NCBI RefSeq assembly: GCF_016097555.1
Contig: NC_054704.1
Span: 32,558,054-32,622,053, forward strand
Length of the DNA: 64,000 bases
DNA from: Gigantopelta aegis
Taxonomy: Eukaryota; Mollusca; Gastropoda; Neomphalida; Peltospiridae
Direction: 5' to 3'
Of the stretch, positions 14,101 to 54,800 are shown piece by piece. Numbering within the stretch: the stretch's first letter is position 1; the number at the start of each line of letters is the position of its first letter. A program made the position numbers and the translations under genes. The notes beneath the pieces were generated by a model. The model did not search any database, had not been told where the DNA came from, and saw only the letters and a list, made by a program, of their open reading frames with translations.

Positions 14101-17100
14101 TCAGTATCACTGTTGTAAGTAAATGTGTGTCTTTCTTCATTTACTAACAGCTCATATTGATACGGCAAAACGTTTTGCGAACGAACACTCATTGTTTTGG
14201 TAAGCTGTGCAAGTCTTAGATTCTTTATGAGTGGTACGGACTAATGCTTTTAAGTGTAAGGCTTCAGATCAAGCGACGCGTCTCTGACGTCACGGACCTC
14301 GTGATTGCCCTGCTCATTAAAGATCGGCAATTTCCGCTAAGAGCTCGTATCTGGGGTTCTTTTATGGAGATATTTTAAGTAATTAATTTTTTATAAAAAA
14401 TTTTTTTAGGTGATTCAATTTATAATTAATTGTACATGGTTGGTGCCAAATATGGTTTACGTGACATGTTTCCTTTAAACACTTCAGCTATTCCCCTCTT
14501 CCACCCAATATATCAAACATTTATTATCTTAATTAAATATTTAGTTATTAGCTACCAAAAAAATATATGTAAAACAACTTACCAAAAAAGAAATATAAAA
14601 TATAGAAATATTTTAGCTTCTGTAATGTCTGCTTTGCACATCGGTTTAACAATGGTACTATTTCCAATTTTATTCGTTCTATCTTTTTTCTCTGTAAATA
14701 AGAGAATATAAGAAATGTATATATTCTTTACAATGACAATACAGTTCACACAGGCACAATATGAAATTGGATCCATTTCACACACAGAACATGTTCAATT
14801 GTATATTCCTTAAGTTCTTACTAAACCAATTTTGAAGATAATACACTATTTTAGAAGTTGATAAGCAAATATAATTTCTTGAGAACACAGGTACACTGAA
14901 AAGTGTGGATGCCTGAAAAATGAAAGTGTTGAACATATTTATTCACATTTAAACTTTATTACTGAATGAATGTTTAAAGGGACATTCCTGAGTTCGCTGC
15001 ATTGTAAGATGTTTCCGACTAATAAAATATTTTTACAATTACATTTACATATTAAATATATTTTCTTGTTTAGAATATCAGTGTCTGTATATTCAATGTG
15101 TTTCTGGTCATCTTAATATTTGTAAGAAGGCCAAACTGGATTTTGTCCTCAAATAATTTCATACATACGAAAAAAAATTTATTTTAGGAAATAAAATGAA
15201 ATTTAACCTTGTACAAATATTAGAACAATCAGAAACACGTTTAATATTCAGCCACTAATATTTTATGCAGAAACATATATTTGATATGTAATTACAATTG
15301 ATAAAAAGTCTGTTAGTCGACAACATCTTAAAAATTGCAGCAAACTCAGGAATGTCCCTTTAATGACAACCCAGCACCAAAAAACCCCCAACTCAGCAAT
15401 ATTTCAGACTTGGTCATAAAAAAAGAATATTCTTAGAAATCTGAATAATAGCTGTCCCTTAGTATATAATGAATTATACTTACTTGCACAACAGGAAATT
15501 CCAGGTAGTTTGTGTGAAGAATAAAATCACCGTAGGCAACCACACCCAAGTATACTCCATAGAGGATCAAAAACAAGTGGCTTTCATTGAGATATACAGC
15601 ATCACTGTGGGGGGGGAAAAAAGAACTTTCTAAAAACTTAAAACAATGATCAGTTTATGCAAACCTAATTGTAACCCATGTGTAGGTCAACTATAAACAA
15701 ATCGTAATCAACAACCTGTGATTCAGTGTTACTCATATTTCTGTATCCCAGATATCTATAAATTTTATTAAAGGAGGGAACAATTAAGGCATTTGGCCTG
15801 GTATGCATATTCAACAATATATAACGCACATTATTGCTTAATATCAACAAGTATAATTGTATAGTTAATTAATAAAACGGTTAAATGTGACGGCTATTAT
15901 ATATAACGGGCGCAGCCATTTTGTACCTTCCCAGTGAATACACCCTCTGGCGAGCTGGTGGTTACGTAATACCTAACGTGTCATGTCAGGAATTAGTTTT
16001 CGAACTGAAGAAACAAAACATACCTGATTTTTGCGAATGCATCGCAATGTTCTGTAATAATAGCCATCCCAGTAAGCCAGCAACAATTTAATTATATATT
16101 ATGTTTCAATACACAATAAACCACCATTGTCAAAGTGTTGAAATAATTGTATTATGTTTGGTACATAAATTAATCCATGAACTGAAATAATAATCGGAGT
16201 GTTTTCTTGGTTAATTGGTCTTTTCTTTCTGTGGCCTGTACCTGTGGTTCCTGATTGGCAGGTGTATATTTAGACGGTCCCCAGACACTGTATCTAGACA
16301 CCCTAAAAAGACGTGCCTCTTTTATTAAGATTACAGGGTATTGTGTGGTAACCGTACGGATACCCCTTCAGTCGTAATGGGCATTATCAGCCTCCCTACA
16401 TTATTACTGTAAGTAATTCTGTAAAACCCTTGATTAAGTAGACTTTCCCCATCTAAAATCACAAAACTGACCAATTACATCGTCCCAAAGAAAAGTATCA
16501 CTTGGGTATCGCGAGTGGTCGTTTTTGCTCGAACGTATCCGACCAATAGGCCTAATAATAAGCAATTTTTCTTTGGATTTTTTTTAAAAAGAAAAATACT
16601 ATAACTCCATTTCGTTCTATTGATGCAAATTGAAATATATTTAGTTAAATAGTTTATTATACTATCAAGTCATTTATGTTGTTTTACAAGTCAGGTTGTT
16701 GACAGCAAAGCGCCTTATCGTAAATTAGAGCGTTTGTTTACACTGTGCTAGACACTGGAGATGGACAGAGCTGACGTCACTTCGCCCCAAGCTATACCAC
16801 CGGTCGTCACAAAAACGAAATAAAATGGCTGCCCCCAGTTAGCAGGAATAATCATGGTTTTTTATTAACATTTGTTAAAGTGTCAGTGTGTGTTGGTGGT
16901 CCAGGTATGCATCTTTCCAACACATAAGGCTCTTGTTTGAGTTGACCCTACCTTTAAATACACCAAATATTTTTTTTTTTATTTATCCCTTCTTACTCCA
17001 ATTATGAATAAGTATTACGATATGTTTACCTCATTACTTCTTGATTTATCCCCCTTCTTACTCCAATTATGAATAAGTATTACAATATGTTTATCTCATT

Positions 17101-34400: not shown

Positions 34401-37400
34401 CACCAACTGAAATTAATAGAAAATTCAAACATAAATTATTAAAGAATTAATTTAGTTTGGGCTTAATACCAAATTGAAACATGTTTACGGCAATATTGAC
34501 ACTAATTATTATTATTATTTGTTTAAGATTTTTTTTTTGAATTCATAAATCATACAAATAGAAAATACAAATTATGATGGAAATGTGAAGGCAACAGATT
34601 AAAAAATACAAATTTTAACATATTAACATTAGCAAAGGGAAGATAGATTTAAGTTTTGTGCTATTGTATACCCAGTACACTTTGTATTCATTCATTTATA
34701 TTTATTTCTGTGCTTTTATCCAATTAAGGTTCAAGCCCGCTGTTCTGGACACACACCTCAGCTATCTGGACTGTCTGTCCAGGACAGTGTGTTAGTGGTT
34801 AATGAGAGGGTTGTCGTTGTAGTGGCCTAACACCTACCCACTGAGTCGTTAAACTTGCTCTGGATAGGAGCCGGTACTGAGAGGTGAACCCAGTACCTAC
34901 CTGCCTTAATTCCAATGGCTTAACCACAACACCAACTTTTATAAACATGTCATTGTTCAGATATTTTGAATATATAATAACCTACAAATAATTAACTAAT
35001 TAAATGTATATAACTGGCCTAAACAAAAACAAGTTACCTCTATTTCCAACCTTATCAATGAGAAAACCTGCACCAATGACAACAACAGCATTGCTGAAAT
35101 AAAACCAATTCAAACATCAAGATTGTTATTTAAAAAAGGCTTCTAAAGTAAACTGCTACAAAAAGAAAGCAGTTGCTATATCTCTAAAGTCTAGACTTTG
35201 TAGTATACTGCATTACGTTACATATATTCACCACTTTCAAAGAGTAATAAAATGTATATGCACTCAACCATAATTGAACATTTTATGTCATGGACCTGAA
35301 ATTAAACCAAATGTAAATGCTTTAACTTACGTCCAGGCATATATGGCATAAAGGAGGTTGTAGTTGTCTGGGGTCATCCCAAGACAGTCAGTGCAGTTGT
35401 TGCAGTGGTATGTCTCATTCCCTATTTCATAATCTTCAGTTCCATTTGTACAGTTATTGTGCTGAAAGATATTAACAGTTTGTTAAAGGGACATTCCTGA
35501 GTTTGCTGCACTTTTTAAGATGTTATCGACTAACAGACTTTTTAACAATTGTAATTACATATTAAATATATTTTTCTGCATAAAATATTATTGGCTGTAT
35601 ATTAAACGTGTTTCTGATTGTTCTAATATTTGTATTAGGTTAAATTTCATCTTATTTCCTAAAATATTGTGTTTTCGTACATACGAAATTATTTGAAAAC
35701 AAAATCCAGTTTGAGCTTCTTACAAATATTAAGACGACCAGAAACACATTGAATATACAGACACAGTTTAATTGTACAAATATTTTATTAGTCGGAAACA
35801 TCTTACAATGCAGCAAACTCAGGAATGTCCCTTTAATAATAAGCCATCTTTACATGGAGGTTTATCAACAATCATTTTGAATTTTGAACTTTTTGTTGTT
35901 TGATGTTAAATGTGGATTAAACAATATAAATTTCTCAGTTAAGGAACACAATCAATAATAAATTTGATAGTGACAGCAATAAGGTAATCCTATACACAGG
36001 ATTCTGGATTTCATTTTTATGGGAACCCTTTTTGGTTCCATGGCTTATTACTGCAATCCACCAGAAACATTTTCAATAATCATGGTATTGGTGGGTCATA
36101 TTACATGATAATGGACAATGGATTTTCGATTTCATGATTTTGCAAGCATACTACTGGAAATGACATTTTTCATGAAAGCAAGTCAAACAATATTGCTTCT
36201 TATTAAAGGATGAATTAATAAAGTATTTGAGAGGTCTTGATATAGGCATTTTGCCTGTTGACCAATCCCCAACCAGCATTATAATTGGGAATAAATATTG
36301 TTTAAACCATTTAGTATTTGAACACATAATGGTTGAAGACACTTCTGTTGTAAATAATCAGTAAACACTTTCAAACATTTACCTCTGTAAACTGGTCTTG
36401 TAAAACGCTGGGCATATCAAAACAAAAGTAAGACCCAAACGTGAGCATACAGTTGAAGAAGAGGATCACAAACCGAAAGCCAACTGCAAACAGGAACAAA
36501 CAAAATGTCATTACTGAAATGTTTTTCTGATATTTTAGGATGCATTCAGTAAAGTTTCACTTCATAACCATCATAATTATAACAGGGTTCATAGACTTAA
36601 AGACCAAACAAATTTAAAGACTTTTACCTGCCATTTTCAAAGAGTTTCAAAGACTTTTACACAGCGGTCAAAGACAATAAAATGCGATAAAAACACCAAA
36701 TCAATTTGTTTACTTTGCTGTCCACGGCAAAAAATAGAGCTTTTTTACATGCATCATGACATATTAAACCTTGTAACTGGAAAATATCAAGTGCATGCAG
36801 CTGTAAAAAGATATCATCATTGCTTTGGCTATTATTTGTGAGAATTTAAAGACTTTTAAAGACTTTTATTACAGTTCGACGACTTTCAAAGACCTAAAAA
36901 ACTTTTTTTTCAAATTCAAAGACTTTCAAGGAATTTAAAACCCGCTACAAGCCTTGTATAAGCATGTGGATGTGTGTAATTTAAAACCCGCTACAAGCCT
37001 TGTATAAGCATGTGTGTAATTTAAAACCCGCTACAAGCCTTGTATAAGCATGTGCATGTGTGTAATTTAAAACCTGCTACAAGCCTTGTATAAGCATGTG
37101 CATGTGCATAATTTAAAACCCGCTACAAGCCTTGTATAAGAATGTGCATGTGCATGTGTGTAATTTAAACCCCGCTACAAGCCTTGTATAAGCATGTGCA
37201 TAATTTAAAACCTGCTACAAGCCTTGTATAAGCATGTGCATGTGTGTAATTTAAAATCCGCTACAAGCCTTGTATAAACATGTGCATGTGTGTAATTTAA
37301 AACCAGCTACAAGCCTCGTATAAGCATGTGCATGTGTGTAATTTAAAACCCGCTACAAGCCTCGTATAAGCATGTGCATGTGCGTAATTTAAAACCCGCT

Positions 37401-39159
37401 ACAAGCCTCGTATAAGCATGTGCGTAATTTAAAACCCGCTACAAGCCTCGTATAAGCATGTGCATGTGCGTAATTTAAAACCCGCTACAAGCCTTGTATA
37501 AGCATGTGCATAATCTAAAACCCGCTACAAGCCTTGTATAAGCATGTGCATGTGTGTAATTTAAAACCTGCTACAAGCCTTGTATAAGCATGTGCATGTG
37601 TGTAATTTAAAACCCGCTACAAGCCTTGTATAAGCATGTGCATGTGTGTAATTTATTTGCTATGCTTTTGTATTTACGTATATGGGTGCTTTATTATTTA
37701 TGTTTTTAATCATTAACACACTTCCACCGACTTTGATATGAATGTACAATCTTTAAATGGTTGAATTATCCGATACTGATTTTGCTTTCATAAAACGTTA
37801 AAAGAAAAGTTGTAAATACTGAAATTGCATCCAGATGCAATGCTTTCATATTATTGTTGCATGGATTTCTCTCTCTTAATGATGGCTGTATGGCGATGGA
37901 TAGACATCAGAAAAAAACAATAACAGTAAAACAGCTTATTTTACATTATTGTTTTGCACTAATTTCAGTATATTCTGAAATCCAATGATCATTTTGCGAA
38001 ATATACTTTCAGTGTATTCTACTTCCAAATTGTGATTCCCCCCCCCCCTCCGATTTCACAAGGCACATAAAAATATATATACCGTACAGATTTATTAATT
38101 TAGTTTTTAGAACTTGGATAGAATAAGATAACAATTTAGCAGAGAAAATGTGTGTGTGTGTGTGTGTGTGCAGGAGGGTTTCAGGTTGTAGAACTCCCCC
38201 TTGCTGAAGCAAATTTTCTTTTTTTAAATAAATTTTCCAAGGGAGCATGACTCAACCCCCCCCCCCACCCCCAATAATCTTCGCTTGCCACAGTATAGAC
38301 CCCACACTGCTAATATTCTTGCACAATCCTGAGTTGAGATTTCCTACAAATTTCATTACTGTCTTCAGAATGCCGTCTGGTGGCAGTAGTGGATACTACA
38401 CCCAGTGTTTGCTATCAGTCTAACAACAATGACAGCCAGGTTTGAACTTTGTCCTTTCTCCAGGGCTGTAGCTAGCAGGGGGAAATGCAACGGTGGAGGG
38501 GTAAGGAAGCCAACCCCCAGAAAAAATCCGCAAAAAATTATAGAAACTTAAAGAAAATTCTCTTCTTAACCATTTATGGAGTTTTAAACTATTAACTACT
38601 CAGTTGCCCCCAAAACAAAAAAATCCTAGCTACGGCCCTACTCTTGTGATTTTCCAATAAAATTAAAGTTTTCTACTAGTAAATGAAAGTATTTGATTGT
38701 AATAATGCATGGATATCTTGTTCAAGGTATACTTTTTACATTTCTAATAAATAAATAATAATATAAAAAAATTGGGGGGGGGGGGGCAAAACTTTAAACT
38801 GTTAAATGAAGTTCAAGCATCCCATGCCGTAGCCCGAGTACTCCGACTGTACGAGAGTTAGACGGACATTTGGACAGTTATACGCTCTCATGCCAAATGT
38901 CCGTCTAGCTCTCTTACAGTCAGAGTACTCGGGCTACCCATGCCGTAATCAGAGTAAAAACTTTAAAGTTAAACGCCGCCCCCTTTGACGAATTCCTAAT
39001 AATTCGCCACTGAAATTATGTACAAGATTTTAACATTTACATAAACGAAATGAAAAATAACAGATAAATATAATGGGACGCATATTTTGGTATGTATGTT
39101 TCTTCGATATGCAAATACAGAGTATGCAACTTACAATGGTTAACATCTAAAATCGCCAT
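28353..39159 (-). CDS. MFSD1: MFSD1 lysosomal transporter, complete (13 exons, 493 aa)
   Basis: MFSD1 is a major-facilitator transporter of the lysosomal membrane, described in mammals as a dipeptide exporter working with the accessory protein GLMP. Thirteen exons join in phase from ATG 39159 to TAG 28353: 39159-39135, 36483-36383, 35461-35331, 35093-35038, 34406-34263, 33791-33633, 33046-32931, 32611-32511, 31717-31609, 30905-30768, 30112-29973, 29261-29147 and 28499-28353 (1482 nt). Landmarks include SYFCFDMPSVLQDQF, YNLLYAIYAW, GRLIFGSGNGSLT, AFWFRNKELAMAFG, FFYNGVFPFVADASKF, SYIAGAVYD, ASMWPTIPLVVAQAT and MIGIGISNL. The protein has 12 predicted helices. Its length is close to the roughly 465 residues of the human protein. 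The start was chosen because TAA lies in frame at 39178-39180 and this is the first ATG after it. Confidence 0.96.
28659..29048. mobile_element. Diverged TTAA-flanked foldback element (390 bp)
   Basis: The left end AAGGGACTATCCTG and the right end ATAGTCCCT are each flanked by TTAA. It lies in the last MFSD1 intron. The terminal bases resemble those of copies at 14978 and 35487, but the interior is different. Confidence 0.75.
29147..29261 (-). CDS. MFSD1: MFSD1 exon 12
   Basis: It encodes EKEEGLKRWKYVMIFLLANV and then LACVATTVALSINDKRT, helix 12. Confidence 0.95.
29529..29660. repeat. GGCCCCGTGCTTATAA foldback element (132 bp)
   Basis: The ends GGCCCCGTGCTTATAAA and TTTATAAGCACGGGCCC pair, with an inner pair of 'aaagtct' and 'agactt' blocks. 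It lies in the MFSD1 intron between exons 11 and 12. Confidence 0.75.
29973..30112 (-). CDS. MFSD1: MFSD1 exon 11
   Basis: It encodes ASMWPTIPLVVAQATVGTAM and MIGIGISNLIVGQILG, helices 10-11, nearly identical to the vertebrate protein. Confidence 0.97.
30768..30905 (-). CDS. MFSD1: MFSD1 exon 10
   Basis: This phase 0/0 exon of 46 codons encodes DIVGKRGYLASFCALMTIPV and later VWLGITYSVAA, helices 9-10. Confidence 0.95.
31609..31717 (-). CDS. MFSD1: MFSD1 exon 9
   Basis: It encodes KFIQYKYGFDDKTSSYIAGA and then VYDVSLVLSPFLGAFI, helix 8. Confidence 0.95.
32164..32432 (+). repeat. tRNA-derived SINE, best-preserved copy
   Basis: The head 'gtagcccagtggtaaggtgc' fits a pol III A box and 'tttgggatcgagcacc' a B box. 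The body follows with 'gctgtggtatgtgctatcc', 'ctgggatggtgcatataaa', 'tcccttgct' and 'agcgggtttcctctc', and the tail is 'tagtggtgttgttaaacaaa'. It is antisense to MFSD1 in the intron between exons 8 and 9. Confidence 0.9.
32511..32611 (-). CDS. MFSD1: MFSD1 exon 8
   Basis: It encodes KFTHIRHFSLAFWLVVL and IMFFYNGVFPFVADA, helix 7 and a highly conserved motif of the family. Confidence 0.96.
32931..33046 (-). CDS. MFSD1: MFSD1 exon 7
   Basis: It encodes AMLCGLGFASAIILSFLD and then the cytosolic linker KQLGDDAAIKSESKKL between the two six-helix halves. Confidence 0.93.
33287..33523 (+). repeat. SINE copy, diverged
   Basis: The copy has the same body order as 32164-32432 ('ccgtgatatacactatcctg', 'ccttgctgctaattgg', 'gcaggtttcctatctc') and ends in 'atgttaagtgcatcg'. 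It lies in the MFSD1 intron between exons 6 and 7. Confidence 0.75.
33633..33791 (-). CDS. MFSD1: MFSD1 exon 6
   Basis: It encodes VQNKITAFWFRNKELAMAFG, FSRAGSVLNFFF and YGLNWTLWAG, strongly conserved helices 4-5 of the family. Confidence 0.96.
34263..34406 (-). CDS. MFSD1: MFSD1 exon 5
   Basis: It encodes VGVFLFSSLCVLGSCVFAVG and later GRLIFGSGNGSLT. The donor is acca|gttggt, chosen because it keeps the frame into IVQNK. Confidence 0.93.
34690..34937 (-). repeat. Second SINE family, minus copy
   Basis: It matches the element at 55563-55812 in reverse: 'ccaattaaggttcaagc', 'acacacctcagctatctgg', 'cctaacacctacccactgag' and 'ccagtacctacctgcc'. It lies in an MFSD1 intron. Confidence 0.8.
35038..35093 (-). 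CDS. MFSD1: MFSD1 exon 4 (56 nt)
   Basis: It encodes NAVVVIGAGFLIDKVGNR, the second helix and the D-K-x-G-N-R form of the MFS loop 2-3 signature. Confidence 0.95.
35331..35461 (-). CDS. MFSD1: MFSD1 exon 3 (luminal loop with four sequons)
   Basis: It encodes an NNCTNGTEDYEIGNETYH stretch, then CNNCTDCLGMTPDNYNLL and YAIYAW. Four N-x-T sequons and several cysteines crowd the first luminal loop. Confidence 0.95.
35487..35832. mobile_element. TTAA-flanked foldback MITE, copy 2 (346 bp)
   Basis: AGGGACATTCCTGAGTTTGC at the left is matched by its inverse at the right, each abutting TTAA (35483-35486 and 35833-35836). It begins only 22 bases beyond the acceptor of MFSD1 exon 3. Confidence 0.92.
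36383..36483 (-). CDS. MFSD1: MFSD1 exon 2
   Basis: It encodes FRFVILFFNCMLTFGSYF and DMPSVLQDQF: membrane helix 1 and the conserved start of the first luminal loop. Intron 1 upstream (2.65 kb) contains the 16-unit minisatellite and a MITE. Confidence 0.96.
36935..37652. repeat. Minisatellite in MFSD1 intron 1 (about 16 units of 36-50 bp)
   Basis: The unit contains 'taatttaaaacccgctacaa' followed by 'gccttgtataagcatgtg'. Unit length varies through 0-3 copies of a short 'catgtg' block. A cluster of central units shares the variant 'gcctcgtataag', showing local spread of a point change. Confidence 0.95.
38830..38936. mobile_element. Palindromic MITE with 9-bp target duplication, copy 2 (107 bp)
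   Basis: The ends TAGCCCGAGTACTC and GAGTACTCGGGCTA are flanked by CCCATGCCG on both sides (38821-38829 and 38937-38945). The element lies in MFSD1 intron 1 and is the same family as 25618-25729. Confidence 0.93.
39135..39159 (-). CDS. MFSD1: MFSD1 exon 1 (25 coding nt, start codon)
   Basis: It encodes MAILDVNH plus one base, followed by a gtaag donor. The phase-1 end matches exon 2, which starts with two bases. The N-terminal tail is therefore very short. Confidence 0.85.
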
Positions 39160-43976: not shown

Positions 43977-44105
43977 TGGAATGCAAGTATCACATGTTTT
44001 TATAACGTACATGATTATACATAACAAAGTGCAGCAACCTTTCCAGGGTGGTAGACCCATGCAACCCGATACGATCTTAATTTGATGTTTGGTCTAACTT
44101 ATGAT

Positions 44106-44111
44106 AGTGTA
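44106..44111. repeat. Left 6-bp target duplication (AGTGTA)
   Basis: AGTGTA directly precedes the terminal repeat at 44112 and is repeated at 51822-51827 directly after the right end. Confidence 0.93.
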
Positions 44112-44855
44112 AGTAGTAGGTGGGGCACTTGGGTACCATGTATGCAAATGAGCTAGGTCACGTGACCTGTCCTGCGTTCTGATTGGTTGACCTCTAAGGG
44201 CGTGGCCTCTTCCGATTGGCTGACCTTTAAGTGACCTAATGACGTCACGTTCAGTGCATTGACCTCGGGGTCGTGCAGCTGGCTGACCTTTAAGCGTGGG
44301 GACGCTACTGGGTTAATGACTTGGACAGCTGTGGGAACCTGACCTCTGTGTCAGGAAACACCGGATGTTGGTAAGATTGATGGGTGTGTTAACCGTCGGG
44401 GGTCCTTTGATGTACAGGAAACAGATGGTGCGGAAGTCGTTAATGACCCCTAGAGTGGTGTTGAATGATGGGGTGTTTATTTAACTGTGACAGCCGTTTG
44501 ATGTACAGGAAACAGATGGTGTGGAAGTCGTTAAGATGGCAAGATGGATTTGACAGGTGTGGGTTGATTAAGGAGAACCAGTCAACGGGGAGTGGAAAAT
44601 TCCAGAGGTTTTACCAGATGTCGGGGGAAAGGTTTGAAACGTGTCCATATACGGCGTTGGCCATGAGTCATTTCAGAACGTGTTCAGACACGTCTTGAGT
44701 GGGGGTCTCTGTATAATGAGAACCAGTCAACGGGGAGTGGAAAATTACAGAGGAAAAACCCCAGGGTTTTGCCAGATGTCGGGGGAAGGTTTGAAACGTG
44801 CCCATATACGACGTTGGCCATGAGTCACCCCAGAGCGTGTTCAGACACGTCTTGA
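44112..44855 (+). repeat. Left terminal inverted repeat of the Polinton-like element
   Basis: It matches 51130-51821 in reverse, with blocks such as 'caaatgagctaggtcacgtg', 'gctggctgacctttaag', 'ggatgttggtaagattgatg' and 'ttgccagatgtcggggg'. Small indels distinguish the two arms. A partial extra copy of its inner part follows directly at 44918-45115. Confidence 0.9.
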
Positions 44856-44917
44856 CCTCGAGATAGCGTGGGTACGCTCTTCTGCTCGTTGCGAGCACAA
44901 TTTCTTACAAAGTGTCA

Positions 44918-45115
44918 ATAAACACCGGATGTTGGTCAGATTGATGGGTGTGTTAACCGTAGGGGGTCCTTAGGGGGAAACAGATGGTGCGGAAGTCGTT
45001 AATGACCCCTAGAGTGGTGTCGAATGACGGGGTGCTTATTTAACTGTGACATCTGTTCGTTTTGGCCATGAGTCATCCCAGAACGTGTTCAGACACGTCT
45101 TGACCTCGAGATAGC
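44918..45115 (+). repeat. Internal direct duplication of terminal-repeat sequence
   Basis: It repeats 'aaacaccggatgttggt', 'gatgggtgtgttaaccg', 'gtgcggaagtcgttaatgac' and 'cgtgttcagacacgtcttga' from the left terminal repeat, in the same orientation. Confidence 0.88.
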
Positions 45116-45159
45116 GTGGGGGTCTGACGTCACAAGAAATGCCCGAATCATTGCTGTAG

Positions 45160-45312
45160 TCGGTGGTTAAGACCGGGGTAGATACCGGGGTTCGTATCCG
45201 GGTATCAACTGGTCATCACCCAGCCTTTTCACTAGCCACAGATGGCTGACGCGTGTCCAGGACAGCGTGCTTGAACCATAATTGAAATATAAGCACGGAA
45301 ATAAGTTGAAAT
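45160..45312 (+). repeat. Second SINE family copy inside the element
   Basis: The head 'ggttcgtatccgggtatc' resembles a pol III B box. The tail 'gtccaggacagcgtgcttga' is shared with the copy at 55563-55812. Confidence 0.7.
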
Positions 45313-45324
45313 AAATGCAAATAG

Positions 45325-45500
45325 TAAGCTTTGTTTTAAAAGTTTAACGACACCACTAGAGCACATTGATTTATTAATCATTGGCTATTGGATGTCAAAC
45401 ATATGTGGTACTTTTGAAACAAAGACGAAACCCGCTACATTATAGTAGCAAGGGGTCCTACACCAGCCCGCAGACAGGATAGCACATACCACACAACTCC
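45325..45500 (-). repeat. SINE copy inside the element
   Basis: It contains 'gtttaacgacaccactagag', 'gatttattaatcattggcta', 'acccgctacattatagtag' and 'gacaggatagcacatacc'. Confidence 0.8.
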
Positions 45501-46383
45501 CACTGTCTTAGATATCCACAGATAGCTGGCGTGTGTGTGTGTGCGGGCGTGCTTAATCCTTAACGGGATAGAGTATTTCGTATTGCCAGACATTCGTAGA
45601 AGATGGCCCCCGAGACTTCATAACAAGATTAGCCAATGAGAAGGTTGCTAGTTTGTTTTGAAATACGACCTTCTTTCATATCTCGCAATGATCGCACGAT
45701 GGTAATTTCAAAAATAAACAGACAAAGCATTAATATTACATATGTATCACTATAAAATAAATACTGAATGTATACTCAAACGATATATACCATTTGAAGA
45801 ATAACAAACACGGGGGTGTTGGTAGTGGCATTTAACGTAAGAGCAGATAATCTTTCTCACCCCTACATTATCCCCACTGTCTTAGCCACAGATAACTAGC
45901 GTGCGCGCGCGCGCGTTTAAACCTTAATGGGATAGAGGTACGGAAAATAAATATAACCTCATAGTTTGAAACTTTATTTCAACATTAATCACTTCCCGCT
46001 GAGACAGATGTGTAGCTAGATCTCTTAAAATACAGAAAATTATATCGTCTGCTATAGATACGTAATGAGAAACACACGCGGGTCACTTCCAAGTATTACT
46101 TTCTTACTACGCTGTGGCTAATTGGTGGAAATATGATACCCCTGCAGCTACAAGCAAATGCTTTATTTAACGACGCACCGAAGCTTACAAAGTCGAGTTT
46201 AATTTCCCGGGTTATTTTTAGCGAAGCAGCCGATATTTTTCAAAGAAATACGGTGGAAAAAGCAGATACACTTATTCGGTGGCCAGTAGGGGGAAGAAAG
46301 GAATGTGCGTAACAACCCAGCCCATTACAAACATTAATAAAGGAATGTATAGACGGCTTAATTGTTAAGGAAAGAAAGGAATA

Positions 46384-46384
<1 letters not shown>

Positions 46385-46419
<35 letters not shown>

Positions 46420-46433
46420 TGTGTGTGTGTGTG
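46385..46433. repeat. TGCG/TG microsatellite
   Basis: About ten units of 'tgcg' pass into 'tg' repeats. Confidence 0.9.
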
Positions 46434-46554
46434 AAACACCCCAGCCCATTGCTTTGAAGAAAGAACGTGTGACTACAACTCAACGTTCCAACGTAACCTA
46501 TGATCTTTTAACTGCATTTGAAACACGAGTATTTCCCTAGAGTACAAGCCTTTA

Positions 46555-46696
46555 TAGACAACCAGTGTATTATGTCTGGTATGTCAAAGACCGTGGTATG
46601 TGCTGCCCTGTACACACAGCTCTTGCTACTATAAAGTAGCGGTAGAAATATCCAATCACAAATCTAGTCATAGAGTAGAAAACACAAACAACAAAC

Positions 46697-46763
<67 letters not shown>

Positions 46764-46985
46764 ATATTTTACCAAATGGGTAAATACAGTGGTCGATCTA
46801 GGATCGATCCCCGTCGGTGGTCCAATAGGCTATAGCCAACCAGTGCATTATGCCAAGGGCCGTGGTATGTGCTGTCCTGTACACACGTCCCTTGCTACTA
46901 TAATGTAGCGGTAGAGACTGACATTCAATCACAAAACTAGTCATGGAGTAAAACACACAAAAAACAAACGTAATGGTTTGGGTTT
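46555..46985. repeat. Direct duplication of a SINE-like block around a GA microsatellite
   Basis: Two copies (about 46555-46698 and 46838-46972) share 'ccgtggtatgtgctg', 'ccctgtacacac', 'cttgctactata' and 'tagcggtag'. Between them lies a GA tract at 46699-46760. Confidence 0.8.
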
Positions 46986-47029
46986 TTTCATTTTATTTCT
47001 AAATGACAAATCACAAACTACACATATAT

Positions 47030-47078
47030 AATATGGACACACATTGGGTTACATCGAGAGGCCTTAAGGGCGACAACT

Positions 47079-47128
<50 letters not shown>

Positions 47129-47382
47129 GACACACATTGGGTTACATCGAGAGACCCTAGGGGCGACAACTACATACAGTAGAATCTCATTGGCTCGAAC
47201 ACTGTCGGTGCATCAAAGTCTGTTCGACCCATCGGGTAGTTCGAACCATGCATTCGGCCGTTGTCGGGTGCTTCTGTAACACAAAAATCATTCGGACAAC
47301 CTCGCATGTTATATATGTTATATATATATATAATGGACACACATTGGGTTACATCGAGAGGCCCTAAAGGGCGACATGTGAA
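47030..47382. repeat. Three copies of a ~50-bp block with TA repeats
   Basis: 'atggacacacattgggttac' followed by 'atcgagag(g/a)cc' and 'gggcgaca' occurs at about 47033, 47127 and 47333, each linked to TA runs. The last copy ends just downstream of the ATPase stop. Confidence 0.9.
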
Positions 47383-47394
47383 TAATATGAGTGT

Positions 47395-48676
47395 TCATTT
47401 CTCTTCATCTTCGTCCTCATCATCAGTATCATCACCATCGGTATCGTCGCCGTCTAGTTCGTCCAAATATTCGCCGATCCACGAACGATACTGATTTAAT
47501 TTAGAACGGATCTGAGGTCTCAGATCTCTTTTCGGATTCACAGACTGAAGAATTTTTCTTGTGTTGGGGCCTTTATCAAAGTAATGCATATAAGCCAGGA
47601 AGCGAGAGTACGTGTCTTTAAATAACTTCCATTGTAAAGTCTTCATGTTTCTTTCGATGGCATCTTGGGACATGTTTTTTTCTTCGTAGCGTTTCCACTT
47701 GCTTTCGATATAATCACGATTGATGTCGAATTCACGCTCGATCATCAGACGTATGCCTTCGTTTTCCAGATCGGACGACGGCTCCTCTTCTTCATTTCCC
47801 TCCTTGCACGTTTTAAATCGTAGATGTCGCTGCAAGTCACTCCCGTCTTTAAAGACCAGACCACACGTATCGCAAGACTGCATCCTCTTGACTTTTTTCA
47901 GATAGGGCTCTACCTCATCTTCTTCTTCGTCGTCACTTTCGTAGGCGGGTATGCCTGGTAGTTTTCTCTTGAATGCGTTACTTTGCATGATTTGCACGTA
48001 GAGCTCTTTCTCCGACGGTGGTTGAAACTCTTCTGAGACATTCGCCGTTACGTTCGTGCTTTTATACCATTCGGACGGCCCCGTCTCTAAACCATTTGGT
48101 CGAAGGCGCCAATGTTCGGGCGTGGTCGGTTTCAAGTCCACCAAGAGATGTCCGTAGGGCCTGTGGGTAGCTTCCTCAAACCGTTGCATGAAATGACGAG
48201 TATTTCCAGGATACATCTGCTGTGCCAAGGTTAGGACTTGCTGCTTGTCGATGGGGTTGTTGAACAGTGCCAGGTAATGACAGTTTCTTCTCTGTATCGG
48301 GTCTTTGCTGCTATAGAGGTTCTGGTTGATGGCAATCACCAATAGGTTTCTGTGGTGACTTCCTTCCGTGAACAGATCGGTGATGCGAGAGTCTTTTCCA
48401 GCTGTAGACATCAGGTCATCCAACACGATGAGATTTCTGACTCTGGGATCCAAATAACGATCCTTTTCCAAATTCTCGGGTATGCCTTGAACAAATTTTA
48501 CTCGAGCAACCATTTTGATCGTATCATAGAGAGGTTGCCATCGTTTGTAGAGCCAGTTGATGCGCTGGGGAGGCGGGTGGATTTTACCATCCCGTAGCAG
48601 TTTGTACAACAAAAATGTTTTTCCACACGACGTGGGTCCCGACACGATCATGGTGAACGGATGTAACAATCTTAAG

Positions 48677-48771
<95 letters not shown>

Positions 48772-48879
48772 CTGGGAAGGCTTATTTTCAGATTCCAAGA
48801 GTCCATGTTTATTTCGTACGTGCCGAGTTAGGTCGTGGGTCCAGACATATTTTTTTTGGCAAATGTGACACTGATTCAT
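47395..48879 (-). CDS. C2H2 finger-polyQ-packaging ATPase fusion (494 aa)
   Basis: This is a predicted FtsK/HerA-type (A32-like) DNA-packaging ATPase of a Polinton/adintovirus-like element. Residues 4-25 form a C2H2 finger (C-x2-C-x12-H-x4-H). Residues 36-67 are about 32 glutamines coded by CAG with one CAA. Then come HPFTMIVSGPTSCGKT with Walker A (GPTSCGKT) at 81-88, and LIVLDD, a Walker B strand with two acidic residues, near 150-155. A second finger-like motif (C-x2-C-x12-H-x5-C) is near 330-355, and the C-terminus is a D/E-rich tail. The ATG at 48879 is 60 bases downstream of a TATA-like box. The frame is intact despite the repeat-filled surroundings. The family call rests on motifs and context. 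What the fingers do is unknown; DNA or terminus recognition is a guess. Confidence 0.85.
48679..48774 (-). repeat. CAG (polyglutamine) repeat, 32 codons
   Basis: It is an uninterrupted CAG tract except for one CAA, inside the ATPase frame between the finger and the Walker A domain. Confidence 0.97.
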
Positions 48880-48939
48880 GATGTTGACTGTTGAAGTGTT
48901 CGACGTGAACTGGCGATGTTGAAACTGCCATGCCCTCCC

Positions 48940-48946
48940 TTTTATA
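48940..48946 (-). promoter_or_regulatory. TATA-like box of the ATPase gene
   Basis: TATAAAA lies 60 bases upstream of the ATPase ATG on the coding strand, followed by 'ggga'. Confidence 0.6.
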
Positions 48947-48952
48947 GTCTTC

Positions 48953-49294
48953 TTAGAAATGTTTGTGCCGTTTTTGCCCAGTCTGCTCTCGTCGTTTCCG
49001 TTCCACGCCGCTCTGTTCTCGTTTCCGTTTCTGCTCGGCCTTGGCTTGTTCTACCACCGGTTGCGTTGGGGAGACCATGACGACTTTAGGTGTCGGGGGC
49101 TTGTTCTGTTCCTCGTTTTCTTTTTTCCAAGTGGGATCGTAGAGTTCTAGACATCGATCCACGCTGTACATCATCTGACTTTTCCCACCACGCTGCACTG
49201 AAAAATGAGGTTGAAGTTTGCCTTGGGCTTGCAACTTGTAAAAGCGGGTCCACTTGTCCGCGTCGGGAACGTACAACTTGTACTGGTCTGACAT
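48953..49294 (-). CDS. Small basic protein of the element, function unknown (113 aa)
   Basis: The frame starts at ATG 49294 with MSDQYKLYVPDADKWTRFYK, a well-ordered N-terminal half rich in aromatics. It ends in a strongly basic tail (KRKREQ, ERKRREQ, QKRHKHF) suited to nucleic-acid binding or nuclear import. A TATA-like box is 52 bases upstream and the ATPase gene begins about 75 bases downstream. Position and size suggest a small virion or DNA-binding protein of Polinton-like elements. I do not recognise a defined family. Confidence 0.65.
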   Translation of the reverse strand: MSDQYKLYVPDADKWTRFYKLQAQGKLQPHFSVQRGGKSQMMYSVDRCLELYDPTWKKENEEQNKPPTPKVVMVSPTQPVVEQAKAEQKRKREQSGVERKRREQTGQKRHKHF

Positions 49295-49346
49295 GTTGCG
49301 CCTGTGAAGGTTCTATCTCAAATGACGATGTTACGCATTGCCCTTT

Positions 49347-49354
49347 TATTTATA
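49347..49354 (-). promoter_or_regulatory. TATA-like box of the small basic protein gene
   Basis: TATAAATA on the coding strand, 52 bases before the ATG at 49294. Confidence 0.6.
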
Positions 49355-49444
49355 CTCTCTATAATTTCGCATATGCGCACAAAGATTAAATTTTGTGTGA
49401 TACGTATGGTCCATGCCCCCATCCCAAAGAATAACTCGTGCACA

Positions 49445-49564
49445 GCTCAGGGGCCACTCTCAGCGCCACAGGGTCACACTCAGGGCCATACTCAGGGCCA
49501 CACTCAGGGCCACACACGGGGCCACACTCAGAGCCACACACAGGTCCACACACACACACACACA

Positions 49565-49621
<57 letters not shown>
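49445..49621. repeat. GGGCCACACTCA tandem repeat passing into a CA microsatellite
   Basis: About eight degenerate 12-base units (49470-49545) lead into roughly 35 CA units. They separate the BIR gene from the promoter of the small protein gene. Confidence 0.95.
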
Positions 49622-49626
<5 letters not shown>

Positions 49627-49633
49627 CACCCTT

Positions 49634-49800
49634 ACATTAATAACAAACAAAACGTGTTATTCACATGTTTATTTTACAAAACGAAAAGTAGCACACACGT
49701 GTTTAATTTCTCAACACATTAATAACAAACAAAACGTGTTATTCACATGTTTATTTTACAAAACGAAAAGTAGCACACACGTGTTTAATGTCTCAACACA
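49634..49800. repeat. Tandem duplication of 83 bp at the 3' side of the BIR gene
   Basis: Two adjacent copies of a block with 'acaaacaaaacgtgttattc', 'acatgtttattttacaaaac' and 'agcacacacgtgtttaat' differ at only a couple of bases. Confidence 0.95.
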
Positions 49801-50361
49801 TTGTTAATGTAGGGACATCTTGGGGACAGCCTGTAATGTTCCATCACTGGATCGTCCATCTTCTGCCATCTGTAGGTGCGTAGTCCACAACAGTAGCAGA
49901 CGACGGCATCGTGGTCTCCCGTGTAGAAGAAACCGGCCTTGGCGAGTTCCCTCGGTTTCTGGCGCAACTGTATGGGCCACCACCCAAACGTGCAGAGTCA
50001 GTCTGTAGAATCTTCTCATTTCGGGTCGATGACAGAACAAGTAATGTCTCGAAAGACCACCGCCATCGGCGTCGTAGGCATCATCATCGTAGGGAGTCGA
50101 GTCCGTTTCTCGAGCAGCATCCGTCTGATCCATGGGTTCTTCGTCCACGATTTCGACGGGTTCACGGATATCCGTGGGTTCTTCGTCCACAATTTCACCG
50201 GGTTCACGAGCAGCGTCCGCTTGATCATGTTCTTCTGGTTTGGTAACCACTCTTTTGCATTGGATCGTGTGTCTTTTGGAACATTTGCATACCAAGACAT
50301 CGTCACCGCTGCTACAACTGCTGTTACTGCTGCTGTCCATTCTCGAATATTCCGATGCCAT
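49785..50361 (-). pseudogene. BIR-domain (IAP-like) gene with a frame break
   Basis: BIR domains bind caspases or apoptosis adaptors, and virus-type elements use them to delay host cell death. The frame from ATG 50361 gives MASEYSRMDSS, a Ser/Cys-rich start, then an acidic linker with two similar EIVDEEP repeats, reaching MRRFYR near 50018. The BIR core lies in a different frame, open from 49997 (just after TGA 49998-50000) to the stop at 49785. It includes LAKAGFFYTG and DAVVCYCCGL, with all four zinc ligands in BIR spacing (C-x2-C-x16-H-x6-C). The join therefore needs a one-base shift near 50000-50015. That could be an inactivating indel, a sequencing error or an unusual decoding event. No RING finger follows. 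A TATA-like box is 67 bases upstream. Confidence 0.8.
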
Positions 50362-50427
50362 GCCTGGAACGCACTCTTCACTCTACAACGGTCGACTGGC
50401 GAATGACAAACAGTTCTAAATCTAAGG

Positions 50428-50435
50428 TTTATATA
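50428..50435 (-). promoter_or_regulatory. TATA-like box of the BIR gene
   Basis: TATATAAA on the coding strand, 67 bases before the ATG at 50361 and about 10 bases from the first p53-like decamer pair. Confidence 0.55.
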
Positions 50436-50445
50436 CACAATGTCT

Positions 50446-50465
50446 GAACATGTCCAAACACGTCC
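50446..50465. promoter_or_regulatory. p53-family-like decamer pair in the BIR promoter
   Basis: GAACATGTCC is a perfect RRRCWWGYYY half-site. It directly abuts AAACACGTCC, which has one deviation in the core. The pair lies just upstream of the TATA-like box of the BIR gene. Confidence 0.45.
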
Positions 50466-50488
50466 TGGGTTTTTCCCGTGACGTCACC

Positions 50489-50508
50489 GAGCATGTCTGG
50501 ACACGTCT
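50489..50508. promoter_or_regulatory. Second p53-family-like decamer pair in the BIR promoter
   Basis: GAGCATGTCT is a perfect RRRCWWGYYY half-site. It abuts GGACACGTCT with no spacer, 23 bases from the first pair, between the BIR promoter and the 3' end of the PC4 gene. Confidence 0.45.
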
Positions 50509-50525
50509 AATATCTCGGGTTGCAT

Positions 50526-50996
50526 TCACTCTATGACACCCTTCAGATTCTGATGATCTTGGTAACATGGATCTCTCAGTTCCGGCACAAAGTCGTAGAT
50601 AGTGTCAAAACATTTCTGAAGCTCTTTCCACTGTTCGACAGTCAGTCGAACGCCGCGACGGGAGGGTTTCAGTTCTTGATCACAATACCACCACTGACGA
50701 ATATCCACACCTTTGTAAATGGTCTCGACGTAGACGTTCCCTCCGAGATGTTGTGATGTGTCCTGTTTAAAGGAGACCAGTTCCAACCATTGTTTCATCG
50801 TCAGAGAAACACCTTTCTTGGTGGGAAAAAGTTTTCCACGGTCCTCGTCGAACTGACGAACGTGAATGGCAATGTCCCCCTTCCACAGTTTAGCCACGAC
50901 GTAGACGTTACCGCCGAGGTCTAGTTTGCATCTCGTTTCGTTTTCTTCGTTTTTGACACTGCCCTCTGTAGTGCTTCTGTTATATCCCGATGCCAT
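50526..50996 (-). CDS. Double PC4-like coactivator domain protein (156 aa)
   Basis: PC4 (p15) domains bind single-stranded DNA and act in transcription and replication. Two copies are seen. The first (about residues 28-77) has GNVYVVAKLW, HVRQF, LFPTKKGVSLTMKQW and L-E-L. The second (about 83-133) has GNVYVETIYK, DIRQWW and LKPSRRGVRLTVEQW. Each shows the PC4 pattern of an R-x-[FWY] strand, K/R-P-x-[KR]-[KR]-G-[IV]-x-L-T and a final Q-W-x-x-L helix. I chose ATG 50996 (MASGYNRS); a longer frame exists only with a GTG start. The frame is intact. A TATA-like box is 115 bases upstream. A role in replication or late transcription of the element is inference. Confidence 0.82.
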   Translation of the reverse strand: MASGYNRSTTEGSVKNEENETRCKLDLGGNVYVVAKLWKGDIAIHVRQFDEDRGKLFPTKKGVSLTMKQWLELVSFKQDTSQHLGGNVYVETIYKGVDIRQWWYCDQELKPSRRGVRLTVEQWKELQKCFDTIYDFVPELRDPCYQDHQNLKGVIE

Positions 50997-51110
50997 TTTC
51001 TTCTTTCCAAGTATAGCGCAATCAGACACAGGAACGTAAGTATCATCAACGGTATACGTCTTCTCTCTAGCAGTGTCGTTGAGCGAATGGCAAGCGTCCT
51101 GAATATGGGG

Positions 51111-51118
51111 TTTTTATA
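51111..51118 (-). promoter_or_regulatory. TATA-like box of the PC4 gene
   Basis: TATAAAAA on the coding strand at the inner edge of the right terminal repeat, 115 bases before ATG 50996. The terminal repeat would thus serve as upstream promoter. Confidence 0.5.
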
Positions 51119-51129
51119 GGCCCCCCACG

Positions 51130-51821
51130 GTAGCGTCCCCACGATATCTGGAAGGCAAGACGTGTCTGAACACGCTCTCTGGGGTGACTCATGGCCAACG
51201 TCGTATATGGGCACGTTTCAAACCTACCCCCGACATCTGGCAAAACCTTGGGGATTTTCCTCTGTAATTTTCCACTCCCCCGTTGACCGTTTCTCATTAT
51301 GCAGAGACCTCACTCAAGACGTGTCTGAACACGTTCTGGGATGACTCATGGCGAACGCCTTATATGGACACGTTTCAAATCAACCCACACCTGTCAAATC
51401 CATCTTGTCATCTTAACGACTTCCACACCATCTGTTTCCTGTACATCAAACGGCTGTCACAGTTAAATAAACACCCCATCATTCGGCACCACTCTACATT
51501 AACGACTTCCGCACCATCTGTTTCCTGTACATCAAAGGACCCCCGACGGTTAACACACCCATCAATCTTACCAACATCCGGTGTTTATTGACACAGAGAG
51601 GTCAGGTTCCCACAGCTGTCCAAGTCATTAACCCAATAGCGTCCCCACGCTTAAAGGTCAGCCAGCTGCACGACCCCGAGGTGCACTGACGTCATTAGGT
51701 CACTTAAAGGTCAGCCAATCGGAAGAGGCCACGCCTTAGAGGTCAACCAATCAGAACGCAGGACAGGTCACGTGACCTAGCTCATTTGCATACATGGTAC
51801 CCAAGTGCCCCACCTACTACT
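51130..51821 (-). repeat. Right terminal inverted repeat of the Polinton-like element
   Basis: It is the inverse of 44112-44855 and ends in CCTACTACT followed by the AGTGTA duplication. Compared with the left arm it lacks a segment near the first 'ccagatgtcggggg' block. Confidence 0.9.
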
Positions 51822-51827
51822 AGTGTA
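51822..51827. repeat. Right 6-bp target duplication (AGTGTA)
   Basis: Directly follows the right terminal repeat and matches 44106-44111. Confidence 0.93.
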
Positions 51828-54800
51828 TATAACTTCAGGCCCGTAGCCAACATGATTAGCGGGGGGGGGGGGGGGGGGGGGGGTAGAAATTTCCAGGGTT
51901 TATTGGCTAAGGGCGATAAGAATTTTACAAAGGTAGTCCTTTGGTCGACCATCGATTTTAGAGTCTGGCGAGTATGGTACTACCAGTTAAAAAAGAAACG
52001 CACTGAAACTGAATCGAATGACCAATGTGACAAAACACATTGCGTCTCTGCTGGCGCGAACAACAAATCCGACAGGAGACAATATTACAGAACATGTTCT
52101 ATATTTTGTCAGCGCCGGACAGTCTCAGCTTCTACGATTTTGGTCTGGGGCTGTAAAGACATATTACACAAAACGTATTGCAGACACTTGAATTGTTTTT
52201 GTGTTTTTTTTGTGTGTGTGGGTTTTTTTTTTTAAAGTCATCGGCTTTTTGTAATGGACTGGGTACGCCATAATTATCTAGTAGACCTACTTTTTGACAT
52301 TATTAAATGTTATGGTACAAATTAATCCTATTTAATTAGCTTCTAGTATTTTATTCTGGGACAAAATCAAAATATATCTTGTAGTTTTAACTCGTACTAA
52401 CAATGAAATTGTCCATTACTACAGGGATTATTCCAAAATTCAATTAATTTAGTAGAAAATCCTTTACTGGAAAGTTCATCCCTTTTCAATCTAATTAAAA
52501 TTAGCTCCACAATAGCATGTGGATCTAACAGCAGCCAGTTGGAGCTCATGTCCACCAATCAAAACCTTACTTGCAGAATCATGCCAGTGATTTAAAAATA
52601 ATTTGAAAACATTCCGAATTATCCTGAGGGTATACGACATGTTTCGTGTGAATTACGAATGCCTTAAAACATGTTTTATTTTATAAAATAAATAATTTGT
52701 AATGTAAAACTGAAGACTGATTTATTTGGGTTTTTTTTTATAAATAAATAATTTTTCATGTAAAATTGAAGACTGATAACCCATCCCGTACGTATTGGTA
52801 TGGTTCGCTCTACTGCGGCCACTAAAATAGACTCGCCCAATGCTATACAAGGACGGAGGGGGATGGGTGGTCATGAATGACCGTTGAACTCACTAGAATA
52901 TAGGGACTTAAGACAATAGGTACAACCGTAACACAAAACTAGGATTAACACACAGACTACACGCTCACTTCATCAGTACACAGGGTGCATTGACTAATGA
53001 TAACAATGCACCCGCCCCCATTTAATGGTCCAGCACGTACTCTAATAAGGAACCGGACAAAAGAATACCGTTCTGAGAACACAATTGCAAAGCACGCGGG
53101 GTAAGCTGAACAAAAGAATATCGGCCTCCCCCACCCAAACCCCCAATACTTGCTGCTGGTAATAACTTGGTACTTGGTGATGCCTCGACCAGAAGCGGTC
53201 AGGCCCTTTATAAGGGCCCTATGGGCAACCTAGGGAGACACCACAGCATCGTAAAGGTCTAAAATTAACGAGCTACTCTCGATTCACCAATACCAAAACC
53301 TATATTAGCTCGGCCATTTACCTTTCGATCGACCGTTCAAAATTGGACTTCCACGCAGTTCTACCTTTTAAGGTTTTAGTATCTTTGTACTATGTTATCG
53401 ATTACTTCAGAGAATGCAAGTGAAGCTGCATAAATTGGCTGTTCTATCATTTTTCTTTACACCTGTATTAAAAATATTTAATCTGTATCATTTAATGATA
53501 ATTTGTAAAAAAAACATTTTTATTTATAATGGATTTCTTTTTCCAAAATTTTATTTGGATTAGTATGGGTTTAAAACGTAATATGTTTTTTATATGAATT
53601 TTAACTTTATTCATTATGCAGTTACATGCCAATTCATCGTTTGCCTTTTGACGCAAACGGACTATATACATGGCTATTATTATACATGGTTGTTATTCAA
53701 CAAAAAAAAGTCTAGTTTTGATTTTCGCTGTCCATTTAAATTGGAGGGCTAGTTGAATTTGAGAAGGGCCATTAAGATTTTTCTTCAACTGGCCCAGCTG
53801 GTGACCATGGTTTTCATGTTAATTTTCAACCCTGAATTTCATGTAAACGGAACTCATCAAAAGCGAGCGCCGAAGGCGCGGAGCCGTAAACGGGGGGAAG
53901 GGGGTCCCCAGATATATATATATATAAAAACCCTCATGACCTTATAATAAAAAGAGACCATCCTGAGTTTGTAGCTATATTATCAAGCTGTCGGCTAGTC
54001 TAATCTATTATACATAAAACTTACATCTTTCTTAGGTTAAATAATCTTGCTTCGAATTTAAATAGCTGTATATGCAATAGTTACATTTCTGACCATTCTC
54101 AGGTCGGTAGCAACCAAGTCGGGGGGGGGGGGGGGGAGAGACTATAGCCCCACTTTTATAAACCCGGTTTAAAATATGGCTACCCCCCCACCCCCACACC
54201 AACTAGACTGTGTCCACTACAGATTGTGCCCTCTCCCCTCCAGATATCGTTCCTACAAGCCTGATTCTAATGTTTTATATACCATAGCTCAACTTTCATA
54301 TGTATCATTTAATTTTATTCCAAATACCGAACAAAATTTTTAATAACTTGGTGAAAGAAATCCCGACAAGAATCCTGAATGTATTTATCTGTATAATGCT
54401 TTATAAATATTTAAATTATGTTAAATACAATAAATATCTGCATACATACACGCGCGCACACATTAATATTATTTCAGCCCATATCTGATATTTATTGCGT
54501 ACAAATCCGAACCGATAGTTTGTCGGGCGTTAACAACAAAATCTTTTTTATTTCGTGATAAGCAATAATTCATAAAGGTCTCCAACAAGTCTTGTTGGAT
54601 GTCGACAGAATTTTCGGGTTCCCTACTGATAGAATAATTAATCATGGAGATATTCACATTCCTATTGCGTGGCCTCCCATTATTTATGCCCCCCCAACTT
54701 GTCCACAAGTCTGTTTTTGCGAGATCTCACGTGAGTGCGCAGTGGAATGTGAAAGAGGTCTATTGCACAAGTGTGCGCGAACATTGATGCAATTCCTTAC

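Follow-up and report, generated by a model that had tools for sequence, protein, structure and literature searches.

The element in the window

We analysed a 64,000-nucleotide stretch of DNA from the gastropod Gigantopelta aegis (hereafter the window), in which positions 44112-51821 are a 7,710-bp insertion with Polinton-type ends. This insertion carries four genes, all on the minus strand, which follow one another from its right end in the order PC4, BIR, small basic protein and ATPase. Its features, from left to right, are as follows.

44106..44111: left target-site duplication, AGTGTA, directly abutting the left repeat
44112..44855, plus strand: left terminal inverted repeat, beginning AGTAGTAGGTGGGG
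44912..45103, plus strand: partial extra copies of terminal-repeat segments, just internal to the left repeat
45104..47394 (about 2.3 kb): half in which no long frame is open and simple and dispersed repeats occur; 0.7-3.5% divergence among the nine copies compared
47395..48879, minus strand: packaging-type ATPase, 494 amino acids, with the sequence GPTSCGKT, which we take to be the Walker A motif, a C2H2 finger near the N-terminal end and another after the ATPase domain, and a poly-Q stretch
48953..49294, minus strand: small basic protein, 113 amino acids; its gene adjoins the capsid-like gene in two large Polintons that were read
49295..49803: CA-rich spacer, the site (between BIR and the basic gene) of an integrase and two small genes in larger relatives
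49788..50361, minus strand: BIR gene, broken, with an open reading frame for the acidic N-terminal part at 49804-50361 and the BIR domain piece at 49788-49997 in different frames
50526..50996, minus strand: PC4-domain protein, 156 amino acids (Pfam E 5.4e-24)
51155..51821, minus strand: right terminal inverted repeat, its inner edge approximate, terminating in the reverse complement of AGTAGTAGGTGGGG
51822..51827: right target-site duplication, AGTGTA, directly abutting the right repeat

A pattern scan of positions 44000-51999 for a 6-bp repeat followed by AGT and, further on, ACT followed by the same 6 bp returned 44112-51821, for which the terminal bases match at 20 of 20 positions. Between the two repeats, the five longest arms of inverted sequence, which are 88-119 bp long and 95-100% complementary, fall in register. 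When aligned over 740 bp, the left and right repeats are 97.0% identical (638 matches, 20 mismatches), and the 87 gap bases in this alignment account for a left arm of about 744 bp and a right arm of about 667 bp. The window element and its copies thus have the 6-bp duplication, AGT-type termini and long terminal inverted repeats that mark Polintons/Mavericks. The G+C content is 0.42-0.49 within the element and 0.31-0.35 in the kilobases just outside it. A run of 23 G residues lies close outside the right duplication, at 51861-51883.

The ATPase gives a weak Pfam match to Adeno_IVa2 (E 1.3e-4, just over the curated cut-off), and many of its listed relatives are annotated as Pox_A32 or Adeno_IVa2. 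No relative of it was found in IMG/VR viral contigs or in a phage collection, and comparison with PDB sequences gave finger and low-complexity matches only. The poly-Q stretch (48678-48774) differs in length among copies. For BIR, there is no Pfam match among the listed open reading frames of the window, where the N-terminal part and the domain lie in separate frames; the gene is disrupted here by a frame change, its frame is open in some other copies, and three of three intact relatives tested elsewhere in the genome match the domain with E values of 1.6e-21 to 6e-21. The basic protein has no relative in IMG/VR viral contigs, and its AlphaFold prediction (predicted local distance difference test score, pLDDT, of 69; predicted template modelling score, pTM, of 0.41) shows no clear fold. 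PC4 would be expected to act in DNA binding or transcription, and BIR in the control of cell death.

Queries for integrase, protease, capsid-like protein and polymerase, including polymerase B from the same genome, gave no match in the window element at E ≤ 1e-3, and the short, weaker matches at E 0.018-1 look like chance. None of the genes for polymerase B, rve integrase, cysteine protease and capsid that characterize Polintons is therefore found in it. Of the Polinton genes, it does have a packaging ATPase, though of another type than the ATPases found near polymerase B. The capsid query is a putative capsid, labelled from position and size only because its single-sequence fold prediction is uninformative (pLDDT 35), and it has no match in PDB sequences; we refer to it as capsid-like. 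The first-pass annotation of this DNA had described terminal inverted repeats of about 0.7 kb, AGTGTA on both outer sides, four same-strand genes, and no visible polymerase, integrase or capsid gene. Each of these observations holds, with the qualification that one of the four genes is broken.

Compact copies and large relatives

We searched the whole assembly (1.149 Gb, 5216 contigs, labelled C and a number below); PMC7895826 describes a G. aegis genome of 1.15 Gb with 15 pseudo-chromosomes. The left repeat has at least 75 matches (the best 40 of 432 candidates were scored). Fourteen sites with two opposed repeats of the window family were examined, and 13 of these have perfect 6-bp duplications, all different in sequence: AGTGTA, GCTATA, GGCGAC, ATTATC, ACCTTG, GATGGA, CCACTA, CATGTA, GTCAGA, TGTGTA, AACATA, AATGTC and GATAAA. 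The outermost element bases are altered at the site with GCTATA, and the right end is truncated at the fourteenth site (E12). Left and right repeats are 93.8-98.4% identical in nine copies and 99.6-100% identical in a tangled copy at C8:66.03M, which indicates that the insertions are fairly recent. In this last copy (C8:66030858-66037471), one left repeat is accompanied by two right repeats, all with GATGGA as duplication, and no difference separates the left from the middle repeat over 740 bp; it is a rearranged or duplicated copy.

These independent insertions with different duplications contradict an assembly error joining two unrelated repeats, which the first-pass annotation had named as a possible refutation. 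We give almost no credence to an assembly artefact of this kind, or to a host gene cluster lying by chance between unrelated repeats, since the whole unit recurs at many sites and the window contains no N. Nothing specific speaks for such an artefact; the closest observations are the tangled cluster on C8 and one copy of a second family, described below, that adjoins an assembly gap.

The interiors of ten gene-bearing copies and of two inner pieces of the tangled copy were read. All ten share one backbone, and the order PC4-BIR-basic-ATPase is kept as far as genes remain. In one copy (E7, on C15) most of the ATPase is gone, along with the BIR domain and the basic gene, and another (E10, C3:4.98M) is without the BIR domain; all four frames are open in two of the ten (E2 on C2 and E11 on C4). 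Because the copies have this backbone in common, the loss of the other genes appears to have preceded the multiplication of their founder. There are also shorter remnants, 1.2-1.7 kb in length. The window copy and a copy on C9 are 98-100% identical across bins of PC4, and the other copies are mostly at 90-94%, with one lower; a copy at C3:6.54M has a divergent N-terminal half of the ATPase and a divergent basic gene on the common backbone. This mosaic pattern shows that elements have exchanged genes.

Matches to PC4 in the genome form one close group and a second group at 55-60%, the latter often in open frames of 208 codons. This second group leads to a second family of compact elements with the same four genes, represented by C4:96030578-96036435 (5,858 bp, duplication GCCATA) and C12:30142305-30148469 (6,165 bp, duplication GGTAAC). 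Its terminal repeat gives no match to the window repeat at E ≤ 1 beyond the terminal AGTAGTA. All four genes are open in two of the five second-family copies read (C4:96.03M and C3:63.66M). Two further loci that were read, with this ATPase and no scored PC4, are also of the second-family type, PC4 having been lost in one, and PC4 and the basic gene damaged in the other. In addition, two compact elements contain an integrase: the genes at C1:425028-432662 (7,635 bp, duplication TACGTA) are PC4, BIR, integrase, two small genes, basic and ATPase, and those at C8:69386823-69394067 (duplication TATGTA) run from integrase through two small genes and basic to ATPase. Taken together, the compact elements measure 5.9-7.7 kb. 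The expectation of the first-pass annotation that several copies would have this short gene set is thus borne out, and in two families with different terminal repeats.

Large elements with a polymerase are also present in this genome, in which the polymerase domain PF03175 has at least 124 matches, many within open frames of 1000-1600 codons. At C5:14047815-14061517, where the ends are not resolved, the genes run from PC4 and BIR through an integrase with rve and chromo domains, two small genes, basic, capsid-like (435 amino acids), protease (PF00770) and ATPase (288 amino acids) to polymerase. Judging by match positions, PC4, integrase, capsid-like gene and polymerase also lie within 7-13 kb of one another at C9:55.54M, C10:54.15M and C12:43.03M. 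Given this gene order, a compact form resembles what would be left of a large Polinton at its PC4 end once the middle and the polymerase end were gone. Ten copies are, like the window element, negative for polymerase B at 1e-4, and the large elements are positive. As a positive control, the compact element on C1 gave its integrase at 97% over 345 amino acids and both small genes; this element holds no control for polymerase, capsid or protease, but the queries for these do match in large elements.

Several large elements have ends related to those of the compact families. At C15:8294843-8307114 (12.3 kb), polymerase, integrase and PC4 are bounded on both sides by second-family terminal repeats with the duplication GATGCG; the left terminus is AGTAGA, and a 200-N gap lies just beyond the right end. 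A row at C6:100.906-100.927M contains polymerase, the 288-amino-acid ATPase, capsid-like gene, integrase and PC4, with a second-family repeat (88%) at 100926652, and may be composite because there are two integrase matches within it. For the window family, C8:14779650-14786883 has the terminal repeat (92%), PC4 (99%), BIR, an integrase with a stop, two small genes, the basic gene, a capsid-like fragment and polymerase pieces, its left end being lost. Another window-family repeat, at C4:26238890, has PC4 0.9 kb away and a capsid-like gene with one stop 5 kb away. The first-pass annotation had looked to a relative with polymerase and integrase between the same ends; such an element exists in the sister family, with both ends, on C15, and the window family has only the damaged, one-ended form on C8. 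Since polymerase and integrase thus occur with second-family ends and, in a damaged element, with window-family ends, mobilisation of the compact elements in trans is likely. The interpretation offered in that annotation, of a deletion derivative or a satellite-like form mobilised by a relative, accordingly gains support, within these limits, from the large elements with related ends and the many short copies.

PC4 of the large element on C15 has no synonymous difference from PC4 of the compact element on C12. This pair, with its related ends, is what might be expected if compact and large elements were two parts of one split viral genome, each supplying genes that the other lacks. We consider that arrangement very improbable, because genes for ATPase, basic protein, PC4 and BIR are all present in the large element on C5 itself, in addition to polymerase, integrase and protease.

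ATPase types, selection and origin

The ATPase of the compact elements is 479-512 amino acids long and has C2H2 fingers, whereas the ATPases near polymerase are of a 288-amino-acid type, a 224-amino-acid type or others; the 288-amino-acid type is 37% identical to the window ATPase over 199 residues. We compared the neighbourhoods of these types using the best-scoring candidates: 91 of 211 for polymerase B, 87 of 5013 for the ATPase, 97 of 267 for the capsid-like gene and 135 of 1188 for the large-type ATPase. For the window type, a scored polymerase lies within 25 kb at 0 of the 87 scored places and a scored capsid-like gene within 15 kb at 0 of 87; a listed integrase lies within 5 kb at 5 of 87, and a scored PC4 within 8 kb at 23 of 87. 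For the 288-amino-acid type (58 places), a polymerase lies within 8 kb at 33, a capsid-like gene is present at 36, and one or the other at 46. Fisher's test of the window type against the 288-amino-acid type gives 4e-17 for polymerase and 4e-19 for capsid-like genes, values that are descriptive only because the copies are not independent. The gene set had been called unusual in the first-pass annotation; this is apt for the ATPase, a type that was not found near a scored polymerase, and does not apply to PC4 and BIR, which are ordinary in the large Polintons here.

Selection was estimated from pairs of copies, using open frames only, as the ratio of nonsynonymous to synonymous substitution (dN/dS). 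Between families, the ATPase has a dN/dS of 0.16-0.22, at a synonymous difference of about 0.19, the basic gene has 0.13-0.18 and BIR 0.17-0.27; PC4 is near saturation, with 0.13-0.16 where computable. Pairs within a family give higher values, with the ATPase and the basic gene in the range 0.24-0.46 and BIR in the range 0.21-0.65. Four values computed for close PC4 pairs of the second group, drawn from compact elements, integrase-bearing elements and C15, are 0.49-1.12, with few changes. Pooled values over all copies (0.33-0.50) were set aside, being blurred by frame changes in two copies (E3 and E8). Here the window-type ATPase occurs only at places without a polymerase or capsid-like gene nearby, so the simplest view is that it was constrained while in the compact elements, an argument that uses pairwise, not branch-wise, dN/dS and neighbours from the best-scoring candidates. 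The ATPase also differs less between the two families than the other genes do, and so appears to have been transferred between them through recombination.

On this evidence, the window element is probably a compact, non-autonomous Polinton, one of a satellite-like lineage that is present in many copies, carries a packaging-type ATPase of its own and would be copied and inserted by large relatives. The protein-primed polymerase of a large Polinton would copy the compact element, and the rve integrase would insert it, each acting on the common ends. The element's own ATPase may then favour the loading of its short DNA into particles of the large relative.

Several observations weigh against this proposal. 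Helper dependence and the use of particles are inferred from the sequence. The large element on C15, read outside its middle, has neither a capsid-like gene nor a 288-amino-acid ATPase among the scored places, and may therefore be incomplete. At C4:26238890, no scored integrase, polymerase or 288-amino-acid ATPase lies within 15 kb, and no intact, two-ended large Polinton with the window repeat is among the scored matches. The genome counts, being drawn from the best-scoring candidates, are lower bounds, and this is the principal weakness of the comparison of ATPase types; 29 broader ATPases (39-44% to the large-type query) are also without a scored polymerase B within 8 kb, C8:69.39M alone among them having been read. 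Gene models of the bivalves Mya and Mytilus fuse the window-type ATPase to integrase/chromo domains or to an adenovirus-type protease, so there the ATPase is probably within larger elements. Constraint is weaker in some close pairs (PC4, 0.66-1.12 in three pairs with few changes; BIR, 0.65 in one), and BIR is broken in the window copy itself.

The chief competing account is that these are Polintons with ordinary internal deletions that are passively mobilised in trans, and that their genes are leftovers which were selected only in large elements. PC4, BIR and the basic gene all occur in large Polintons, stops, frame changes or additional deletions affect several of the compact copies, and the 1.2-1.7 kb remnants fit this account too; the doubtful completeness of the bounded large element and the pairwise nature of the selection test add to its weight. 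Nevertheless, it leaves unexplained an ATPase that has no scored polymerase or capsid-like neighbour and yet is conserved between families, and the same set of four genes in two families with different ends. We therefore regard simple deletion as unlikely, though as a serious contender.

Beyond the reading that we favour, that of a compact lineage copied and inserted by large relatives, lies a more specific proposal that we advance only tentatively. In a true satellite system, elements of 6-8 kb belonging to two or more families would have acquired an ATPase dedicated to packaging, exchanged it through recombination from one family to another and used it to divert the particles of large Polintons. 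The proposed intermediate of such a history, the 7.6-kb element on C1, is still present.

Some further observations concern relatives of the ATPase. At C10:71782175, C13:23784686 and C4:27289341, a different integrase (45-46% to the query) lies directly beside distant window-like ATPases, with the ATPase first, as in the Mya gene models, and with no scored polymerase within 8 kb. One stray match among genome contigs (JACCHT010000018.1, 4496-5241) is on a contig filed under a metagenome-assembled genome of a Bathymodiolus symbiont, and another relative (P0103) is filed under Sedimenticola; both are probably host DNA in symbiont bins. Elsewhere in the window, open pieces of Tc1/mariner-type transposase lie on the plus strand at 5662-6408 and 7947-8822 (DDE_3, E 5.1e-11 and 1.7e-17), the first also matching HTH_Tnp_Tc3_2, and there are tandem arrays at 16987-17464 (66-bp unit, 7.3 copies) and 36932-37655 (46-bp unit, 16 copies).

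Comparison with known systems

Non-autonomous mobile elements are well known as an idea, and deletion forms of Polintons are expected. The recurrent four-gene compact Polinton, with a separate type of ATPase and in at least two families, looks new; within the portions consulted of the open-access literature searched, with Repbase outside that scope, no compact Polinton family with such a gene set is described. According to the abstract of PMC8097293, particles of animal Polintons have not been observed so far. If the proposed life style is correct, a parasite that keeps a selected packaging-type ATPase without a polymerase or capsid-like gene would point, indirectly, to particles being produced and being worth stealing. 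A single genome in which compact and large elements of known ends coexist is also a natural system in which to compare particle content and new insertions.

The window element resembles Polintons/Mavericks in its 6-bp duplication, AGT-type termini, long terminal inverted repeats and A32/IVa2-like ATPase; vertebrate Mavericks have 6-bp duplications and (AGT)2...(ACT)2 termini (PMC8097293). Unlike in Polintons/Mavericks, we could find neither a polymerase B nor an rve integrase, a protease or a capsid-like gene in it, and the compact elements here measure 5.9-7.7 kb compared with the 15-20 kb given for Polintons in the first-pass annotation. Non-autonomous DNA transposons, as a concept, keep cis-acting ends and depend on the enzymes of relatives (PMC6431247). 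The compact element would likewise retain its cis-acting ends and rely on relatives' enzymes, but it differs from such derivatives in keeping four genes with low dN/dS, one of a type unseen near the polymerase of its presumed helpers.

The ATPase itself aligns with 18 relatives at 37-44% identity, and many of these keep both C2H2 regions. They include ATPases of molluscan Polintons, some of them from bivalves (Solemya, Mytilus, Pecten, Mercenaria, Mya and others), from some of which, the fused gene models of Mya and Mytilus, the window ATPase differs in standing alone.

Finally, an analogy may be drawn with virophages and with phage satellites of the phage-inducible chromosomal island kind. 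Virophages encode capsids, whereas no capsid-like gene was found in the compact element. The likeness would be one of life style: like these parasites, the compact element would spread in dependence on a helper and possibly divert its packaging.

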